Shown piece after piece: positions 2,832 through 10,347 of a stretch of 59,194 nt of DNA; position 1 is the stretch's first letter; every line of letters starts with the position of its first letter. Under the pieces are notes generated by a model. The model saw only the letters and a program-made list of their open reading frames with translations, had not been told where the DNA came from and did not search any database. Location: the NCBI GenBank assembly GCA_017651265.1, contig JAGCDO010000015.1, positions 1 through 59,194 of the forward strand, read 5' to 3'. This DNA is from Prevotella sp. (GTDB lineage: Bacteria; Bacteroidota; Bacteroidia; Bacteroidales; Bacteroidaceae). Made by a program: the position numbers and the translations under genes.

Positions 2832-2937
2832 GAGACTTCTCCCCCGGAGGGGAAGGAGTCTTCTGGAGGAAGGAGGAAGGACGAAGGAGGAAGGAGATAT
2901 GCTTCAAGGATAGTGAAGCAAGAGGCAAGAGGCAAGA

Positions 2938-2995
2938 ACTTTTGGAGCAGCGAGTGCCACCATGCTTGCATGATTGGCCGAGTCGTGACAAAAGT
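2938..2995 (-). repeat. Dispersed hairpin element, diverged copy (inverted)
   Basis: On the minus strand this reads ACTTTTG...GCCA-at-CATGC-aa-GCATG-g-TGGC...CAAAAGT, 58 bases from outer arm to outer arm. The length and architecture match the copies at 3265-3322 and 10229-10286, but the inner stem is CATGC/GCATG instead of TGTAC/GTACA, so three of five base pairs differ with both sides changed. Confidence 0.75.
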
Positions 2996-3009
2996 CAACG
3001 AAGTTAAGC

Positions 3010-3120
3010 AAGAGATATGCTTTAAGGCTAGAGAAGCAAGAAGCAAGAGGCAAGAAGCAAGAGATATGCTTTAAGGCTAGAGAAGCAAGAGGCAAGAAGC
3101 AAGAAGCAAGAGATATGCTT
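3010..3120 (+). repeat. Short tandem units with AAGCAAG heptamers
   Basis: AGAGATATGCTT recurs at about 3011, 3060 and 3109, roughly 49-50 bases apart, with a further copy at about 2895. Between them lie runs of AAGCAAG/AGGCAAG heptamers. Confidence 0.7.
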
Positions 3121-3129
3121 CGAGTACAA

Positions 3130-3204
3130 GTGGTTCAGTATATGATAACAGTATCTCAGTTCTATTCTCCCTCCTCCCTCCTCCTTCCTCCTTCCTCGAA
3201 AAAA
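3130..3204 (-). repeat. Inverted partial copy of the 12.75-kb spacer element
   Basis: Read on the minus strand, this stretch contains a purine heptamer tract, then ACTGAGATAC, TATACTG and ACCACT in the same order as 12791-12836. The homology includes interior sequence, not only the low-complexity arm. Confidence 0.65.
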
Positions 3205-3234
3205 ACCTCACTCCTCCCTCCTCGAAACAAAAGT

Positions 3235-3330
3235 AATCATAAAGTTATATCACTTCGTTCTATGACTTTTGTCACGACTCAGCCAAATGTACAAGTACAA
3301 TGGCCCTCGCTGCTCCAAAAGTTCAAAGTT
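3235..3330 (+). repeat. 96-base dispersed repeat, copy 1 (contains hairpin element 3265-3322)
   Basis: It is identical over 96 bases to 10199-10294. The core is ACTTTTG (3265-3271), GCCA (3282-3285), TGTAC-aa-GTACA (3288-3299), TGGC (3301-3304), CAAAAGT (3316-3322). It overlaps the 5' end of the longest frame of the ABC exporter, so translation of this repeat as an N-terminal extension is most likely artefactual. Confidence 0.85.
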
Positions 3331-3385
3331 GAAAATTCGGGAGTATTTTAGTAGGAAGGAAAGCAAGTATAGCGCCAAGGTTATT

Positions 3386-5002
3386 ATGAAATGGCTGTGG
3401 CGCGCTTGGCGGGGCAATCAGCTGCAGGCTGTGCTGAATGCCTCGTTAGGATTGCTGAGTGTGGTGGTGAGCTTAGCTCAGGTATGGGCTATTCAGCATG
3501 CCATCGACGTGGCCTCTCATACGGCCGAAGGCTCCCTCTATTGGGCTGTTGCCTATATGGGTTTCCTGATCTTGGCCAATTTCGCCATCAGCATCAGTAG
3601 TATCTGGGTGCGGAACATCTTGGGAATACGCGCACAGAACCGTATGCAGCAACGAATGCTCGACAGGATCCTGCGCTCTGAATGGCGCGGGAAGGAACGG
3701 ATGCATAGTGGTGATGTGATTAACCGACTGGAAGGCGATGTGGGTAATGTGGTGAGTTTCCTTACTGAGACCTTGCCCGGCGCCCTCTCCACACTGGCCA
3801 TGTTCCTCGGTGCGTTCTTCTACCTGTTCTCCATGGACAAGTGGCTGGCACTCATCATCATCGTGATGTTACCGCTGTTCCTGGCAGTAAGTAAGATTTA
3901 TGTCAACCAGATGCGGCACTTTACCCGTCAGGTGCGCGATAGTGACTCGAAGGTGCAAAGTGTATTACAGGAAACGGTGCAGAACCGAATGCTCATCAAG
4001 ACACTGGAGAGTGATACGATGATGGTTGACCGACTGGAGAACACGCAGAGTGAGCTGCGGCAGAACGTGGTGAAACGCACGATGTTCTCGGTGTTCAGTA
4101 ACCTGATTCTGAACTTCGGCTTCGCCTTAGGTTACCTGGTGGCCTTCCTATGGTCGGCCCTCCGCATGTCGGCCGGTACGCTTACCTTCGGTGGCATGAC
4201 CGCCTTCCTGCAGCTGGTGAACAGGATTCAGGGTCCGGCACGTGGACTGACCAAGCTGGTGCCTGCCTTCGTGAGTGTGTTCACGGCAGCAGAGCGTTTG
4301 ATGGAACTGGAGGAGGATCCTATGGAGGAGCAGGGAGAGCCCATAGAGCTGGAAGGACCGTGTGGGGTGCAGCTGGAAGCGGTTTCGTATGAGTATGAAC
4401 CTACCGACGGGAAGGTGATAGACAACCTGTCGTTTGATTTCTACCCGGGTAGCTGTACGGCCATCTTGGGCGAGACGGGAGCAGGTAAGACCACCCTTGT
4501 ACGTTTGATTCTGGCTTTGCTGCGCCCGCAAAGTGGAGAAGTCTCCATCTATAATGAGAAGATGAAGAAAACCCTCTCTCCCCGCATGCGTTGTAACTTT
4601 GTGTATGTACCGCAGGGAAACACCCTGATGAGCGGTACGATACGTGAGAACCTGCGTTTAGGAAAGCTGGACGCCACAGACGAGGAGATGAAGGAGGTGC
4701 TGATGCAGGCTTGTGCCGGCTTTGTCTTTGATCTGCCCAAGGGTTTGGACACCTCTTGTGCCGAATCCGGTGGCGGCTTGAGTGAAGGTCAGGCGCAGCG
4801 CATTGCCATTGCCCGTGCCTTGTTGCGCAACCGTGGCATCATGCTGTTTGATGAGGCTACCAGCGCCCTTGATCCTGACACGGAACGGCAGCTGCTGCAG
4901 AATATCCTGCAGAAGCGCGACAAGACCGTCATCTTCATCACCCACCGTCCTGCAGTGGTTGATTATTGTGATCAGACCTTAAAGATTGAGAAACTGGCTT
5001 AA
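3386..5002 (+). CDS. ABC exporter, fused membrane and ATPase domains
   Basis: The N-terminal half (about residues 1-290) is a six-helix ABC exporter membrane domain and the C-terminal half is the ATPase: Walker A GETGAGKTT, signature LSEGQAQR, Walker B GIMLFDEATSALD and a switch His in FITHRP. It probably works as a dimer in the inner membrane, exporting a lipid, drug or peptide; the substrate cannot be told. I chose the ATG at 3386 (538 residues, MKWLWRAW) because the 39 codons upstream in the frame are the 96-base dispersed repeat rather than protein. The neighbour downstream is convergent, so this is likely a single-gene unit. Confidence 0.85.
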   Translation: MKWLWRAWRGNQLQAVLNASLGLLSVVVSLAQVWAIQHAIDVASHTAEGSLYWAVAYMGFLILANFAISISSIWVRNILGIRAQNRMQQRMLDRILRSEWRGKERMHSGDVINRLEGDVGNVVSFLTETLPGALSTLAMFLGAFFYLFSMDKWLALIIIVMLPLFLAVSKIYVNQMRHFTRQVRDSDSKVQSVLQETVQNRMLIKTLESDTMMVDRLENTQSELRQNVVKRTMFSVFSNLILNFGFALGYLVAFLWSALRMSAGTLTFGGMTAFLQLVNRIQGPARGLTKLVPAFVSVFTAAERLMELEEDPMEEQGEPIELEGPCGVQLEAVSYEYEPTDGKVIDNLSFDFYPGSCTAILGETGAGKTTLVRLILALLRPQSGEVSIYNEKMKKTLSPRMRCNFVYVPQGNTLMSGTIRENLRLGKLDATDEEMKEVLMQACAGFVFDLPKGLDTSCAESGGGLSEGQAQRIAIARALLRNRGIMLFDEATSALDPDTERQLLQNILQKRDKTVIFITHRPAVVDYCDQTLKIEKLA

Positions 5003-5005
5003 TCC

Positions 5006-6019
5006 TTATTCTGTTTTCCCTTCTGAATACAGCACTTGCACCAATGTCTGTCCTACAGCTTGGAGCGTGTTCTTGTCGATATGCTCCATATCGTCGTTAA
5101 TGGTGTGCCAGGTAGGTCCGAACCCGCTCTGCTGACAATCGGGATAGAAAGGAATGATATCAATAGTCGGAATATGCGCCTGGGTATTGATAGGCGTATG
5201 GTCGTCGGTGATATACTCCCCACTACTGTCGGGGAAATAGCTGCCAAAGCCCACCACCTTGGCGGCTGCCCATACCTTATTTAATATAGGCTGCGCATAT
5301 TGCTTGGAGAAACGCTCCTGATAGAACTGCGCACCCTGGCCGCCCACCATGTCGAGGAGGATTCCGTAGCGAGGACTGTAGTTGGCTACATGCGGGTTGT
5401 TGGCCCAATAGGCTGCTCCCAAAGCCCACACATCGCCTGTGGTGTTATACGTATTGGTATCCCACTGCGGCGTACCCCAGTCTTCTGCATCAAAGCAGAT
5501 GAAGTCAACCCCCACCTTCAGCGAGTCGGCAGTCTGTATCAGCCGCGCCAGCTCCAGCATCACGGCCACGCCGCTGGCTCCATCGTTCGCAGCCATCACG
5601 GGCGTCTTCCAGTTCCTCTCATCCGGGTCGTTATCAGCCCACGGCCGACTGTCCCAATGGGCACAGAGCATCACCCTCGTGGTGTTGTCGGGCTGTGTGG
5701 AGGCAATGATATTCGTACTGTTCAGTGCCGTTCCGTCATAGCCTTGGAGGACAGTCTTCTGGGTGACGGTCTGACAGCCGAACTGCTGGAATTGCTTGAT
5801 GATCCACGCCTCACATTGGTCGTGTGCAGCACTGTTCATCGTTCGTGGACCGAAGTCGCATTGTGCCTGACAAAACGCAAAAGCGCTATCAGCATTGAAT
5901 GCAGGCCCCGTAGGAGCACTGAGCACCAGCACATCCTGATGGGATTTACTGCTCTTACAAGCCACGAGCAGGAGTAGAAGTAAAGGAAGGAATCGTTTCA
6001 GGTTCTTGATGATCATCAT
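5006..6019 (-). CDS. M28-family lipoprotein, likely glutaminyl-peptide cyclotransferase
   Basis: A lipoprotein signal ends at LLVAC (Cys21), so the protein is probably anchored in an envelope membrane. The remainder (337 residues in all) is an M28-type zinc fold: AHWDSRPWA near 120, AANDGASG with Asp146, CFDAEDWG with Glu179/Asp180, and DDHTP with His274. This single-zinc spacing and the HWDSR motif resemble bacterial type II glutaminyl cyclases, which convert N-terminal Gln of exported proteins to pyroglutamate; Bacteroidales are known to carry such enzymes. An aminopeptidase remains the alternative. It lies 19 bases downstream of the C26-M19 fusion and may share its transcript. Confidence 0.75.
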   Translation of the reverse strand: MMIIKNLKRFLPLLLLLLVACKSSKSHQDVLVLSAPTGPAFNADSAFAFCQAQCDFGPRTMNSAAHDQCEAWIIKQFQQFGCQTVTQKTVLQGYDGTALNSTNIIASTQPDNTTRVMLCAHWDSRPWADNDPDERNWKTPVMAANDGASGVAVMLELARLIQTADSLKVGVDFICFDAEDWGTPQWDTNTYNTTGDVWALGAAYWANNPHVANYSPRYGILLDMVGGQGAQFYQERFSKQYAQPILNKVWAAAKVVGFGSYFPDSSGEYITDDHTPINTQAHIPTIDIIPFYPDCQQSGFGPTWHTINDDMEHIDKNTLQAVGQTLVQVLYSEGKTE

Positions 6020-6038
6020 CGTGTATTCGTTTTTTTGT

Positions 6039-7787
6039 TTATCTGTCTATGCGCTGCACCTGAGCCATCACTCTCAGCCAGTTGCCGCCCCAGATCTTCT
6101 CAATATCGCGTTCACTATATTTGCGCCTGAGCAGGTGCAGGGTGAAGTTAATGGCCTCGCTGCTGTTGGCCATACCCACCACACCACCGTCGCCGTCGAA
6201 ATCTGTACCCAAGCCCACATGATCTATTCCCATGACGGCTATGGCATGCTCCAGATGAGCAATCGCATCAAGGATGGTTGCCTCTCCCTCTTTCCGCAGG
6301 AAGCCGTGGTAGAGAGTGGTATGGGCCACACCGCCCTTTGCTGCCAATGCCCGCATCTGGTCGTCGGTGAGGTTGCGGGGATGGTCACATAGGGTACGAC
6401 TGCTGCTATGACTGCATACAATAGGTGTACGACTGATTTCCAGGGCGTCGTAGAAGCTCTTCTCGTTCGCATGACTCAGGTCAACCATCATTCCATTGGC
6501 GTTCATGGCCTGAATCACTTTCTCGCCGAAGGCACTCACACCATTGTGTGTGTTGCACCCCTTGGCCGAGTCGCAGATATCATTATCCCCGTTATGGCAA
6601 AGTGTGATATATACCACCCCTCGCTGGGCGAAATGTTTTACGTTTGCCACGTCGTGGTTCAGGGCCAATCCGTTCTCAATGCCGAACATAATGCTCTTGC
6701 GCCCCTTCCGCTTGTCTTCGTACAAGTCGCTGGGCGTGCGGGCAATACTGATATACCGACTGTTGTTGCGCACAATCTCCTCGATCTTGTCGAAGATCAG
6801 GTCGGCATAGGCCATCGGACTGTTCACATCGAACGGTACGATCTGCGAGAACTGTTCCCCGATCTTGGGCTGTGGCAGGTAAGCCGCCATGATGACAGCA
6901 TCCTGTCGGCCTTCGGTCATCTTATGCAGATCCACGAGGATGCGCGGGTCGCGCTGTTCAAAATGAATACCCTGCGGGAAGAACATCGGCGTGTCGCAGT
7001 GCGTATCCAAGGTAAGGATTCTATGATGCAGTCGTTTGGCCACCTGGAAATTCGTAGCCTGTTTCACCAGCCAGCTGAACAACGGGAGTCCGCTTTCCAG
7101 CCATTCGGGATGCCACTGCACACCTAAGATAGGTTTGAATTCACTGCTCTCGATGGCCTCGATGGTACCGTCGGGAGCCGTAGCCACCACATGGAAGCGC
7201 GAACCGGGGTCGGAAACGGCCTGGTGGTGGAAGGAGTTCACATAGATGTTCTGCGTTTTGTACAGTTCATATAAGATACTGTCCTTATGCAGTGTCACGC
7301 TATGGGTGAGTTCGTTGCGGTTCGCATCCTGCGAATGCTTGATGGTGGTGGCGCTGATGTCCTGTGCCACATGACCGTCGAGAGCCATCACGATGGTCTG
7401 TATTCCCCGGCAGATGCCCAAGATAGGAATCTGACGGTTATACGCCAGTCGGGTGATGAGCATTTCGGGGAGGTCGCGTTCGGCATTGATGCCGTGCAGC
7501 TTGGGTGAAGGTTCCTCACCGCACCACAGAGGGTTATAATCTGCACCGCCGCTGAGCAGCAGACCGTCGAGGTGGTCCAGGGTGTTCACCAGTACGTTCT
7601 TATCGGCCACAGGAGGAATAATCACAGGCGTTCCACCTGCCTGGATCACCTGTTTGTAATACCTGTCACGCAGGGAAGCATCCCCTTCCGTGAAGTTACT
7701 GGTAATACCTATAAGAGGTCGATGGTCGGCCTCGGGGAATGTCGCATAGATCTTACTGAGGTGCGACTGCAGATTAAAGTTCTCCAT
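6039..7787 (-). CDS. Fusion of class I amidotransferase (peptidase C26) and membrane dipeptidase (peptidase M19)
   Basis: Two complete enzymes appear in one chain of about 582 residues. The N-terminal part has the C26/PuuD layout: LLLSGGADYNP, nucleophile Cys in GICRGIQ (about 126) and a His-x-Glu in QWHPEW (about 230). The C-terminal part begins LTLDTHCDTP near 265 (metal-binding His-x-Asp) and continues with HSSSR and GTDFDGDG, typical of renal-dipeptidase-like M19 enzymes. Expected activities are hydrolysis of gamma-glutamyl amides and of dipeptides; a joint role in degrading gamma-glutamyl peptides is inference. No signal peptide is seen, so it is probably cytoplasmic. I prefer the start at 7787 (MENF); an in-frame ATG at 7805 would overlap the Lrp gene. 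An Lrp regulator lies just upstream. Confidence 0.85.
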   Translation of the reverse strand: MENFNLQSHLSKIYATFPEADHRPLIGITSNFTEGDASLRDRYYKQVIQAGGTPVIIPPVADKNVLVNTLDHLDGLLLSGGADYNPLWCGEEPSPKLHGINAERDLPEMLITRLAYNRQIPILGICRGIQTIVMALDGHVAQDISATTIKHSQDANRNELTHSVTLHKDSILYELYKTQNIYVNSFHHQAVSDPGSRFHVVATAPDGTIEAIESSEFKPILGVQWHPEWLESGLPLFSWLVKQATNFQVAKRLHHRILTLDTHCDTPMFFPQGIHFEQRDPRILVDLHKMTEGRQDAVIMAAYLPQPKIGEQFSQIVPFDVNSPMAYADLIFDKIEEIVRNNSRYISIARTPSDLYEDKRKGRKSIMFGIENGLALNHDVANVKHFAQRGVVYITLCHNGDNDICDSAKGCNTHNGVSAFGEKVIQAMNANGMMVDLSHANEKSFYDALEISRTPIVCSHSSSRTLCDHPRNLTDDQMRALAAKGGVAHTTLYHGFLRKEGEATILDAIAHLEHAIAVMGIDHVGLGTDFDGDGGVVGMANSSEAINFTLHLLRRKYSERDIEKIWGGNWLRVMAQVQRIDR

Positions 7788-7791
7788 CTTG

Positions 7792-8253
7792 TTAATCCAA
7801 TGCAATGGGTATCTCTCTCTTCACGCTTTGCTCCAGCGAGATGAGCGTCTCGGTAGCCACCACGCCGGGAATGTCCTGCAACTGGTTGTTGAGCAGGTCC
7901 ATGAGCTGTTCATTATCGCGTGCATAGAGTTTGACGAGCATGGTGTACGGACCGGTAGTGAAGTGACATTCCACGATTTCGGGGATGTGCACGAGTCGTT
8001 CCACCACTTGCTTATACATACTACCACGTTCAAGGTTAATGCCTACATAGGTACATGTGCTGTAGCCCAACGATTTGGGGTTCACATCGAAACCACTACC
8101 AGTAATCACGCCCTCGTCGGTGAGACGCTGCACGCGCTGGTGGATGGCTGCACGAGAGACGTTGCATTCTGCTGCCACGTCTTTGAAAGGTATCCTCGCG
8201 TTTTTCGAGAGGATGTTCAGGATTTTCTTGTCCAGACTGTCAATCTTGTCCAT
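7792..8253 (-). CDS. Lrp/AsnC-family transcription regulator
   Basis: This 153-residue protein has an N-terminal winged helix-turn-helix (LDKKILNILSKNARI, then VAAECNVSRAAIHQRVQRL) and a C-terminal RAM ligand-binding domain (VGINLERGS, VECHFTTGPYTMLVKLYA). Such proteins form octameric assemblies and respond to amino acids. The C26-M19 fusion starts four bases after its stop, so the regulator probably leads that operon and controls it. A 17-base inverted repeat with one mismatch surrounds its promoter region (8316-8369), consistent with autoregulation. The start at 8253 fits the family N-terminus. Confidence 0.9.
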   Translation of the reverse strand: MDKIDSLDKKILNILSKNARIPFKDVAAECNVSRAAIHQRVQRLTDEGVITGSGFDVNPKSLGYSTCTYVGINLERGSMYKQVVERLVHIPEIVECHFTTGPYTMLVKLYARDNEQLMDLLNNQLQDIPGVVATETLISLEQSVKREIPIALD

Positions 8254-8292
8254 TTGATTGCCTAATTCTTGTTAAGTAATGAAATCTGTTAG

Positions 8293-8369
8293 CAAAAATA
8301 GGCATTTAAAATGAAATATGCAACATTTTGACATGAAAATTGTGCAAATTCAGTCAAAATGCTGCATAT
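8293..8369 (-). promoter_or_regulatory. lrp promoter with flanking inverted repeat
   Basis: The minus-strand -7 box is TATTTTTG (8300-8293). About 20 bases upstream the sequence reads GTTG, inside the first arm of an inverted repeat: ATATGCAACATTTTGAC (8316-8332) and its complement with one mismatch (8353-8369), arms 20 bases apart. Position over the -33 region suggests a binding site for the Lrp protein encoded just downstream; that is inference. Confidence 0.55.
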
Positions 8370-8392
8370 ATGTCAGGAAAACGGACCTGATA

Positions 8393-9241
8393 CTATTTTT
8401 CAATGCCCACCAGCTCCACGATAAAGATCAGTGTGCTGTAGGCAGGAATATCACCTGTTTCACGGGCACCGTAAGCCAGTTCCTGTGGGATATAGAGCTC
8501 CCACTTGCTTCCTACAGGCATCATGGTGAGCGCCTCGGTCCAACCCTTGATGACATCCGTAGGACGGAACTTATTGGTTTGTTCCTCGCGTTTGTAACTG
8601 CTGTCGAATACCGTTCCGTCAATCAGTCGGCCCTCGTATTTCACAATCACCTGATCGTCTTTGGTGGGCACCTTTCCCTTACCCTTTGTCAGGATCTTAT
8701 ACTGCAGTCCGCTGGGGGTTACCTGCACGCCTTCCTTCTTGCTGTTCTCGCTCAGGAACTGCTCGCCAGCTTTGCGCACAGCCTCTTTCTTGGCATTGAC
8801 AACAGCTCCCATGCGGGTGTTGAAGTAGGGTTTGGGATCCTGACCAAAGACGGTGGAGTCTTTCTTCAGTGAGGCCATGAAGCCTTTCGTGAACAACTCC
8901 TCCTGTATGGTGTAGTCGGAACCCTGCAAATCATTAGAGATAGACGGCAGCATGCGCTCTTTCACCATGCCTGCAATCTGGATACCGGCACTGTAGGCTT
9001 TCTTCTTGCCGTCAACACCGCTTTTCATGGCCTCCTCAAAGCTACTCAGGAAATCATCGAGGTAGGCTTCATCCATATCGTACTGCTGTTTCAGGAAGGT
9101 CATCAAACCATCGGTCATGGATGCTCCCGCAGCATAGCTAAGGGAGTCGGAAGGTGTGGTTAGTGTTACCTTCTGAGCAGATGCTGTATAGAAAGAAGCA
9201 CTCACCATGACGGTGAGTGCTATAAGGATGATTCTCTTCAT
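8393..9241 (-). CDS. FKBP-type peptidyl-prolyl isomerase, secreted
   Basis: A cleavable signal (MKRIILIALTVMVSASF...ASAQ) is followed by a helical FKBP N-terminal dimerisation domain (about 30-165) and a C-terminal FKBP catalytic domain (about 180-282) with VKYEGRLIDGTVFDSSY and the GSKWELYIPQELAYG segment. This is the FkpA/Mip layout: a periplasmic prolyl isomerase and chaperone. It follows a second FKBP gene by 11 bases, so the two are probably co-transcribed. The length of 282 suits the family. Confidence 0.9.
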   Translation of the reverse strand: MKRIILIALTVMVSASFYTASAQKVTLTTPSDSLSYAAGASMTDGLMTFLKQQYDMDEAYLDDFLSSFEEAMKSGVDGKKKAYSAGIQIAGMVKERMLPSISNDLQGSDYTIQEELFTKGFMASLKKDSTVFGQDPKPYFNTRMGAVVNAKKEAVRKAGEQFLSENSKKEGVQVTPSGLQYKILTKGKGKVPTKDDQVIVKYEGRLIDGTVFDSSYKREEQTNKFRPTDVIKGWTEALTMMPVGSKWELYIPQELAYGARETGDIPAYSTLIFIVELVGIEK

Positions 9242-9252
9242 AATGGAAAAGA

Positions 9253-10125
9253 TTATTTCTCAATACCCAGCAGCTCAAGCTTGAAGATCAGCGCAGAGAA
9301 AGGCTTGATACCTCTCTGAGCACGGTCGCCGTAAGCCTGCTCCTGCGGAATAACGATCTCCCAAACAGAACCAACAGGCATGTTGGTCAGTGCAGTAGTC
9401 CAACCGGGAATAACCTGGTTAGCAGCCAGCGTAACGGGCTCGCCACGCTTGTAAGAGCTGTCGAACACATTACCATCAATGGTCTTACCTTCATAATGTA
9501 CCTTTACCATAGAGGTATCGGTGGGGAGAGCACCTGTACCAGCCTTGATTACCTTGTACAGAACACCGCCCTTGAGCTTCTTCACGTCCTTACCCTTGGC
9601 ATAGTTGGCAACGTACTTCTCGCCTTCAGCCTTGTTTTCACTGAACTGCTTCTCGGTCTGGTTCTTCTTGTAGTCGGTCATCAGCTTCTGTGCCAGCTCA
9701 CCAGCCTGCTCCATAGTCATCAGACCCTTAGTACCTGTTGTACCGCTGATGAAACCAGCCATGAAGTTCTTCTTGGAGATGGTTTTGGTTGAGTCCTCAC
9801 CGAAGATCTCGAGGTTGATACCCTTGATCATTTGGTTGCCCACCTGCTTACCGATCTCGATACCTGCATAGTAAGCGTTCTTCTTCTTGTCGTCACCAGC
9901 ATTAGCACCTTCGTTCAGACCTTTGATAAAGTCGTCCAAGTAAGCTGTGTCAACACCGAGGCGCTGTACCAGATAGTCCTTCAGACCCTGTGTCTGTGCC
10001 ATACCCATGGCATAGCTCATACTGTCGAGATCACTCTTCAAGTTAGCCTTGGGAGTGGGGTTGCCGCATGATGTGAAAGCGGCGGCTACGATAGCCATAG
10101 CGGCTACGATTGTTACTTTTTTCAT
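9253..10125 (-). CDS. FKBP-type peptidyl-prolyl isomerase, lipoprotein
   Basis: The N-terminus ends in a lipobox-like AFTSC, suggesting a membrane-anchored protein. It has the same two-part layout as its neighbour: FKBP_N helices (about 30-180) and an FKBP catalytic domain (about 190-290) with VHYEGKTIDGNVFDSSY and GSVWEIVIPQEQAYG. Clear similarity to the genes on both sides suggests tandem duplication with divergence. It is first in a two-gene unit; upstream lies the 96-base dispersed repeat, and I see no convincing -7 box between repeat and start. Confidence 0.9.
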   Translation of the reverse strand: MKKVTIVAAMAIVAAAFTSCGNPTPKANLKSDLDSMSYAMGMAQTQGLKDYLVQRLGVDTAYLDDFIKGLNEGANAGDDKKKNAYYAGIEIGKQVGNQMIKGINLEIFGEDSTKTISKKNFMAGFISGTTGTKGLMTMEQAGELAQKLMTDYKKNQTEKQFSENKAEGEKYVANYAKGKDVKKLKGGVLYKVIKAGTGALPTDTSMVKVHYEGKTIDGNVFDSSYKRGEPVTLAANQVIPGWTTALTNMPVGSVWEIVIPQEQAYGDRAQRGIKPFSALIFKLELLGIEK

Positions 10126-10198
10126 TGCTTTTCTTATCTATTTAAATTACGATTTTACAATTTTACCATTTCACCATTTCACAATTGAACTAAGTTCA

Positions 10199-10294
10199 AA
10201 TCATAAAGTTATATCACTTCGTTCTATGACTTTTGTCACGACTCAGCCAAATGTACAAGTACAATGGCCCTCGCTGCTCCAAAAGTTCAAAGTT
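10199..10294 (+). repeat. 96-base dispersed repeat, copy 2
   Basis: Base-for-base identical to 3235-3330, about 7 kb away, in the same orientation. The hairpin core is 10229-10286. It sits between two FKBP genes, 50 bases from the stop of one and 73 from the start of the other. Confidence 0.9.
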
Positions 10295-10347
10295 CTTCGC
10301 ATAGCGAAGCGGCAGAGCCGAGCGCAATGTTCAATGTTCAATGTTCA
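10295..10347. repeat. Hairpin and TTCAATG heptamer tract
   Basis: CTTCGC-ata-GCGAAG forms a 6-base-pair hairpin at about 10295-10309. Then CAATGTT is repeated about three times (10325-10345), running directly into the stop codon of the cytoplasmic FKBP gene. Confidence 0.6.

Follow-up and report, generated by a model that had tools for sequence, protein, structure and literature searches.

A small mobile hairpin repeat found in heptad arrays of Prevotella genomes

The stretch of DNA analyzed here (the window, 59,194 nucleotides; contig JAGCDO010000015.1 of the Prevotella sp. assembly GCA_017651265.1) carries three copies of a hairpin element, one on the minus strand (2938-2995) and two on the plus strand (3265-3322 and 10229-10286). 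The original prediction, made from the sequence alone, had described them as a dispersed 58-base unit whose folded form may be under selection. The description of the copies was borne out: each has the outer arms ACTTTTG/CAAAAGT and an inner hairpin GCCA...TGGC, the inner stem reads TGTAC/GTACA in two copies and CATGC/GCATG in the third, with three of the five pairs changed on both sides, and the 96-base blocks at 3235-3330 and 10199-10294 are identical over their full length. The statement that no transposase lies nearby also agrees with our data, as none was found by Pfam among the ten large open reading frames (ORFs) between about 0.2 and 11.8 kb of the window. The mobile unit exceeds 58 bases, includes an additional mini-hairpin and ends in NNNNNTT (copies A to C in Table 1). 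The identical 96-base block was rejected as this unit because the empty site of a relative (genome G110, see below) also has the 12 bases on its left side. A remnant of coding sequence was considered and rejected as well, with the reading frames over the copies in the window being short or N-terminal extensions and the element occurring in several frames elsewhere.

Read in the direction of the copy at 3265, the element in its common form consists of the mini-hairpin AAC-TTC-GTT followed by an outer arm GACTTTTG, a loop strand TCACGACTCG, the inner stem GCCAA with a bulged base, an apical stem with a two-base AA loop, the returning inner stem TTGGC, a second loop strand NCTCGCTGCTC and the outer arm CAAAAGTT. 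Common forms measure 69-73 bp, while copies B and C represent a 77 bp variant with a longer left hairpin. The outer arms vary between copies and the two strands of the internal loop are kept nearly invariant. Since the search pattern fixed most of both loop strands as well as some of the inner stem, and left arms, apical stem and mini-hairpin free, this invariance is partly built in. In most of the copies examined from another genome of the genus (G065) the inner stem is swapped to GCAGAGT/ACTCTGC with the bulge retained, and the inner stem can therefore also change by compensation.

Occurrence of the element by chance is contradicted by 22 matches of the core pattern in its own genome compared to none for the reversed control. 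A BLAST search with a 141-base stretch around one copy returned 25 places in this genome, and the collection of copies with a covariance model, built from 85 copies and applied at E <= 1e-5, raised the number to at least 46. Among 100 sampled genomes of the genus, with up to 50 candidates scored in each so that high copy counts are lower bounds, 65 including the own genome had at least one match and 35 had none. The copy-richest genomes were G065 (at least 50 copies), the own genome (G000, at least 46), G110 (at least 44), G079 (at least 31) and G048 (at least 26). Of 247 genomes sampled from the class, with up to 20 candidates scored per genome, the own genome alone matched; the rows listed included only two further genomes of the genus, neither of which was positive. 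A pattern scan of GTDB genomes found at least 103 stretches, and among the matches listed 80 titled rows were Prevotella, Prevotellaceae, Bacteroidaceae or Bacteroidales, many of them named for ruminant gut samples. One IMG/VR contig (L129, 5.9 kb, classed as viral) carries a single copy at 709-751, which could reflect carriage by a prophage or misclassified host DNA. The titles and abstract beginnings in the open-licence part of PubMed Central (PMC) yielded no publication describing the Prevotella element.

The element is dispersed and recently mobile, because three copies of the own genome have empty sites in the close relative G110, which is 89-99% identical at the loci compared. At C23:55682 G110 lacks the copy; the alignment has a single gap, exactly 69 bases long with a heptad (7-bp repeat unit) on either side, and both genomes have four heptads there. 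At C34:21417 the copy is absent without duplication and three left heptads are present in both genomes. At window position 10211, G110 lacks the element as well as a second hairpin unit described below (element 2) and reads TAAAGTT-CAAAGTT-CAAAGTT-CAATGTT in their place; 23 further loci of the genus match the flanks of this site and leave no room for an insert. In addition to these three empty sites, one own copy corresponded to an array with element 2 and five copies were shared, four by direct flank match and one via a third locus. The sites at 2938, C23:60979 and C23:63673 were too rearranged to be read, C55:24430 had a partial flank match only, and the remaining own copies lay outside the comparison. 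Heptad number varies between strains. A 7-bp target duplication was dropped as an explanation because heptad counts are equal in filled and empty sites, both at the clean site C23:55682 and at C34:21417; the cleanest insertion thus took place without duplication of the target.

Many copies sit between the units of 7-bp tandem repeats, and the sequence of these repeats (CAAAGTT, CAATTTT, CCACATT, CTTGCCT, GATAGTT, CAAGATT, CATAATT and others) belongs to the site and not to the element. Flanks were compared for 116 copies with full flanks, 107 of them distinct. The heptads before and after the element agreed in at least six of seven letters in 43 of the 107 distinct pairs and in all seven in 16, compared to maxima of 14 and 6, respectively, in 5000 shuffles; observed and shuffled flanks alike were given four left boundaries, which had been chosen after inspection of the data. 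When one boundary was fixed, flank identity was 46%, with a maximum of 41% in 2000 shuffles. Perfect repeat runs at a lag of seven numbered 99 in a pool enriched for element loci, versus 2-20 at other lags between 2 and 15, apart from 63 at lag 14, its double. Around one gene in 28 loci of other genomes of the genus (93 kb), only two runs were present at lag 7 and four at lag 14. The window has eight lag-7 runs, four of which (12864, 15624, 23061 and 58395) have no model match near them. Genome G008 gave no model match, yet a query containing heptad stretches hit it 19 times at these stretches, and the arrays are therefore independent of the element. The view that the heptads are simply part of the mobile unit was rejected as a full account on the same ground, namely that arrays exist without elements.

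Table 1. Hairpin elements and heptads at the three insertion sites of the window; the model behind the scores of 80.4-90.9 bits was built on an alignment that itself includes such copies.
Feature	Position	Strand	Basis and remarks
Element copy A (69 bp)	2937..3005	-	cmsearch 90.9 bits; boundary rule from empty sites C34:21417 and C23:55682; parts in order: AAC-TTC-GTT (mini-hairpin), first outer arm, internal loop, inner stem with apical stem, second loop strand, second outer arm with AAAAGTT at its end
Element copy B (77 bp)	3247..3323	+	longer left hairpin ATATCACTTCGTTCTATGAC; cmsearch 80.4 bits, model spans 3255-3323; left boundary taken from the identical copy C, for which an empty site is available
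Element copy C (77 bp), same as copy B	10211..10287	+	cmsearch 80.4 bits, model spans 10219-10287; empty in G110
Heptad AGGCAAG beside copy A	2930..2936		part of lag-7 run from 2918
Heptad AAGCAAG, other flank of copy A	3006..3012		6/7 match with opposite flank
Heptad TAAAGTT left of copy B	3240..3246		sequence and flank comparison
Heptad CAAAGTT right of copy B	3324..3330		sequence and flank comparison
Heptad TAAAGTT left of copy C	10204..10210		also in empty site
Heptad CAAAGTT, separates element 1 from element 2	10288..10294		sequence and G110 comparison
Element 2 (30 bp)	10295..10324	+	pattern matches in own genome, flank rule, absent at G110 site
Heptad array CAATGTTCAATGTTCAATGTTCAA	10325..10348		lag-7 run

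Element 2 is inserted in the same heptad array as copy C and consists of the hairpins CTTCGC-ATA-GCGAAG and CGGC-AGA-GCCG followed by AGCG. Its pattern, CTTYGC-NNA-GCRAAG-CGGC-AGA-GCCG-AGCG, had 30 matches with up to two mismatches in the own genome compared to none for the control, and its loci (the one in the window and L250-L269) exhibit a compensatory stem change as well as heptad flanks under the same flank rule. In the heptad position corresponding to window position 3247, G110 carries element 2; a single type of junction is therefore used by two hairpins of unlike sequence. A third repeated hairpin-like unit, GATATGCTTYAAGG..TAG.GAAGC, was noticed at 2896-2919, 3014-3037 and 3063-3086, beside or within a GCAAGAR heptad array.

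The folded form of the element is strongly supported by covariation. Two alignments were used, an ungapped one of 88 out of 124 copies (43-base core with full flanks, distinct; A1) and one of 85 copies in which near-identical rows were thinned (A2). Mutual information with average product correction, calculated on A1 with no structure supplied, placed nine pairs of the arm/apical axis and one pair of the mini-hairpin in the top ten, with the non-pairing columns 44-57 counted among the nine. With the structure given, 215 cells were altered on both sides, compared to 53.6 after shuffling and at most 52 in slid controls, while the number of pairs with any change on both sides (13) was not above shuffling and was reached in 111 of 500 shuffles. 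The stems covary almost entirely by Watson-Crick swaps and the strands of the internal loop are kept. In its general sense the predicted selection on folding thus held up, with covariation far above both shuffled and slid controls, while its RNA variant is disfavoured. For the T.T or A.A combinations in columns 44 and 57 of A1, an inversion of the apical hairpin was considered as the source and rejected because the bases of the loop do not invert.

The class of mismatch that is avoided bears on which nucleic acid is paired. In a helix selected in RNA, G-U should be the best tolerated of all non-Watson-Crick pairs. The outer arms had four G-T cells where 42 were expected by shuffling and 63 other mismatches where 177 were expected; in the apical stem the respective numbers were 2 versus 42 and 36 versus 111. 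The fraction of the shuffled level that is retained was accordingly 0.10 (outer arms) and 0.05 (apical stem) for G-T and 0.36 and 0.32 for other mismatches, with a weaker contrast in the mini-hairpin (0.32 for G-T versus 0.59). Because G-T is the most depleted class, whereas an RNA-selected helix should tolerate G-U best, we favour pairing between DNA strands, either in a folded single strand or through templated correction of a quasi-palindrome.

A structured RNA had been offered as an alternative by the original prediction. Such an RNA would have a regulatory or self-processing role, a dispersed gene and a fold kept by selection, and this explanation draws on the same strong covariation and conserved internal loop. 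The minus strand would in that case have an apical loop CUUG and a mini-hairpin loop GNA, both of which are stable loops, and its RNA folds somewhat better than shuffled sequences (z of -2.1 and -2.7). In 37 of 55 cases between tandem genes, by crude ORF calls, the minus strand runs in the direction of the genes and in 18 in the opposite one (p 0.014). These calls come from a table of 151 loci (81 intergenic, 43 inside an ORF, 9 partial and 18 near an end) obtained with an ORF caller that accepts TTG and GTG starts and inflates the class inside ORFs, and the table was used for orientation only. Furthermore, a few copies lie, here with their plus strand, between a box which we take to be promoter-like and a possible start codon. 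The depletion of G-U, assessed with no RNA control from within these genomes, stands against this explanation, as do the occurrence of both orientations, the several frames of copies inside genes, and the Rfam results, which gave no family at gathering score for the window and nothing over the element at E <= 5 for nine loci. Five weak Rfam matches were dismissed, as they belonged to plant or animal families and fell far below the gathering scores of these. We regard a structured RNA as very unlikely.

A palindromic double-stranded site that is bound by a host protein and spread by selection would explain why the apical pair 49-52 covaries across two bases only, as in a duplex palindrome. The sequence of the arms is free, however, as long as their complementarity is kept, and copy number ranges from none to at least 50 within one genus, with tandem copies and copies in genes, which leaves this explanation hardly any probability.

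A third alternative dispenses with a dedicated enzyme: template switching at the quasi-palindrome would copy one arm from the other, slippage would expand the heptads, and recombination through the arrays would duplicate the element. Strict changes on both sides without intermediates are what templated correction predicts, and tandem copies of the element as well as heptad numbers that differ between strains fit the same process. The non-palindromic internal loop, on the other hand, is conserved and not corrected (nearly invariant, although mostly fixed by the search pattern), and both the precise insertion at one array junction (C23:55682) and the identical or near-identical cores in different outer neighbourhoods of G065 look like the work of an enzyme, so that we consider this explanation rather unlikely. 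In G065 a burst of such copies was observed at loci L208-L221, where identical or nearly identical cores have differing surroundings with CAATTTT/CAATCTT arrays; some of these copies are arranged head-to-tail in tandem, joined at CCAAATT.

Movement by a REP-associated tyrosine transposase (RAYT) or another Y1 transposase of the IS200 type, as known for repetitive extragenic palindromic (REP) elements, would account for a dispersed hairpin with a bulge, orientation-specific ends and no target duplication. Matches to the Y1 profile (Y1_Tnp, PF01797) were present in 63 of the 100 genomes of the genus, with four in G065. The own genome, which is 94% complete and for which such a transposase had been proposed as a check, had no match, and none was present in G110, G079 and G048, which are 97-99% complete and carry at least 44, 31 and 26 copies, respectively. 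RAYT/Y1 was rejected as the mover because four of the five copy-richest genomes lack a match. Furthermore, Y1 was missing in 8 of 27 genomes with seven or more copies and in 29 of the 73 others, with no clear association with copy number, and the element has no GTAG-tagged stem. This explanation is largely refuted and retains a very small probability at most.

Most copies lie outside conserved genes, but copies were also found in the open frames of four conserved genes with conserved sequence on both sides, encoding IspD, a glycosyltransferase (GT4), a U32 peptidase and an amidohydrolase. They emerged from a search with a relaxed pattern that gave 198 distinct matches and 37 candidates for enclosing ORFs, 29 distinct ones of which were scanned with Pfam. 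Compared to PDB entry 5ddt, the insert in ispD adds about 52 residues. In the glycosyltransferase and the U32 peptidase the insert lies between the two domains, and in the amidohydrolase it lies inside the domain. Other IspD proteins of the genus that were examined mostly have a short loop at this place, while a few have longer loops, some of them heptad-coded in appearance. In ispD of the own genome (L006/L271, C55, about 81.2-82.0 kb) the reading frame differs across the insert, and it is open in two relatives (L079 and L191); the difference could be due to a phase switch by heptad slippage, a broken gene, an error of assembly or of the metagenome-assembled genome, or compensation by another copy. 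Further ORFs, for example in L106, L119 and L040, have a domain on one side of the copy only. Eleven ORFs were suspected of being chance matches to the relaxed pattern. For ten of them the model gave no match at the place in question; the eleventh holds a genuine copy at L040:6408-6476, which scored 82.6 bits, and a metallo-hydrolase-fold domain was seen on just one side of it.

Taken together, we lean toward reading the element as a non-autonomous mobile hairpin of Prevotella that is inserted in heptad arrays and recognised as a folded single strand of DNA, and hold this to be moderately probable as a whole. An enzyme acting in trans would read the conserved internal loop and the bulge, and would require complementarity only of the outer arms. 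Its cleavage sites would be the final TT of a heptad (NNNNNTT) and that of the element's own end (NNNNNTT), with the cut on the far side of the TT, and the cut strand would be joined into the heptad array. The arrays exist in their own right and would offer insertion sites to at least two families of hairpins, and insertions into genes would persist where the reading frame stays open.

A number of observations weigh against this reading. Recognition as a folded single DNA strand is suggested by the G-T statistic and by analogy, and no RNA family from these genomes served as positive control for this statistic, with four tRNAs only found. The third highest covariation score belongs to columns 44-57, located beside the bulge of the inner stem, which form no base pair and have no explanation by pairing. 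Predicted fold energies of two copies of the window are unremarkable (z of -0.6 to -1.6 for DNA and -1.6 to -2.7 for RNA). The orientation skew between tandem genes is not predicted by a pure landing-site model. In 64 of the 107 flank pairs fewer than six of the seven letters agree, and heptads cannot be recognised in a subgroup of copies located next to promoter-like boxes. Of the empty sites C23:55682 is the only clean one, as G110 differs by a few further bases at C34:21417, and the second element and extra heptads complicate the heptad count at window position 10211. No enzyme that moves the element was identified with the Y1 profile in the genomes of the genus or with Pfam on the ten ORFs of the window, other transposase families not having been searched. 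In the promoter-box subgroup (L118, L088, L051, L131 and L148), whose boxes TAnnTTTG we presume to be promoter-like, similarity extends outside the element, e.g. ...TTCGGAAATG...CACTTATTCGTACCTTTG.

A bolder version of the mobile-hairpin reading is possible but rather doubtful in our view. It posits a transposition system in Prevotella that is not yet described, in which an enzyme places short hairpins, recognised as folded single strands of DNA, at the unit junctions of 7-bp arrays and leaves the target unduplicated; the rule would hold for several unrelated families, the arrays might themselves arise from this machinery, and the small dispersed repeats (SDRs) and short tandemly repeated repetitive sequences (STRRs) of cyanobacteria would have an independent origin. 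Very small repeats in 7-bp arrays are reportedly a cyanobacterial puzzle raised by Elhai in 2008. That this arrangement is now seen in a distant phylum, together with empty sites, a target rule common to two families and covariation of a strict Watson-Crick type, means that the mechanism can be tested. Conserved genes such as ispD can evidently also harbour these hairpins in their open frames, and slippage of the heptads could shift the frame there.

Among known systems, the REP elements were the first of the comparisons suggested by the original prediction, together with miniature inverted-repeat transposable elements (MITEs). Its view of a dispersed element was broadly supported, and mobility can be added, while some of the features that define REP/RAYT systems and MITEs of the DDE type are lacking. 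The role of the 7-bp repeats as target, the mini-hairpin and the insertions into genes went beyond what that prediction could see. The likeness to REPs and REPINs (REP doublets forming hairpins) lies in the short, dispersed and gene-free hairpins; the differences are the variable basal stem, the conserved internal loop, the 7-bp array as target and the lack of Y1 in the genomes noted above. GTAG and CGTC REPs and classes of RAYT are described in parts of PMC3733652 and PMC6006769, and according to a section of the former CGTC REPs occur in five phyla including Bacteroidetes and have no known dedicated transposase. Membership among the CGTC REPs was considered and rejected on the tag: instead of a GTAG or CGTC tag beside a fully paired basal stem, GTC/CGTC here precedes an unpaired loop strand, with its G paired in the outer stem. 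With respect to DDE-type MITEs, no target duplication was found at the few sites tested (four versus four heptads at C23:55682; C34:21417), and, with regard to fixed terminal inverted repeats shared with a parent transposon, the arms were seen to vary in sequence and a parent element was sought in the ten ORFs of the window only. Palindromic candidate RNAs of Bacteroidetes from human microbiomes are listed in PMC8040213.

The SDR elements of Nostoc punctiforme, which Elhai and colleagues are said to have reported in 2008, are tiny hairpins of 21-27 nt with compensatory changes that were recently mobile and are often embedded in tandem heptamers. Compared by description, the Prevotella element shares the compensatory hairpin, the recent mobility and the embedding in heptamers, although the latter does not apply to every copy; it differs in its length of 69-77 bp, its conserved asymmetric internal loop and its host among the Bacteroidota, while element 2 (30 bp) is nearer to the size of SDRs. 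The Nostoc study is cited in passages of PMC3116915 and PMC4390886, the latter stating that SDR5 inserts precisely at a fixed position of HIP1 (highly iterated palindrome 1). The STRRs of cyanobacteria are tandem repeats of usually 7 bp according to an excerpt of PMC2670836; the heptads described here resemble them in this respect and differ in varying from site to site and in accepting hairpin elements at unit junctions. Rickettsia palindromic elements (RPEs) of about 150 bp lie in frame inside unrelated genes, as stated in part of PMC10969869, and RPE-6 and RPE-4 have been equated with tagged CGTC REPs (in the relevant section of PMC3733652), a form that the Prevotella element does not have. 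By description, the palindromic structure and the in-frame insertion in conserved genes are common to RPEs and the Prevotella element, whereas many copies of the latter are intergenic and flanked by heptads. We would file the element as a variant among the small mobile hairpin repeats. Judged by these analogies, its best match in kind appears to be the cyanobacterial SDR in heptamers, combined with the habit of Rickettsia RPEs of residing inside genes.

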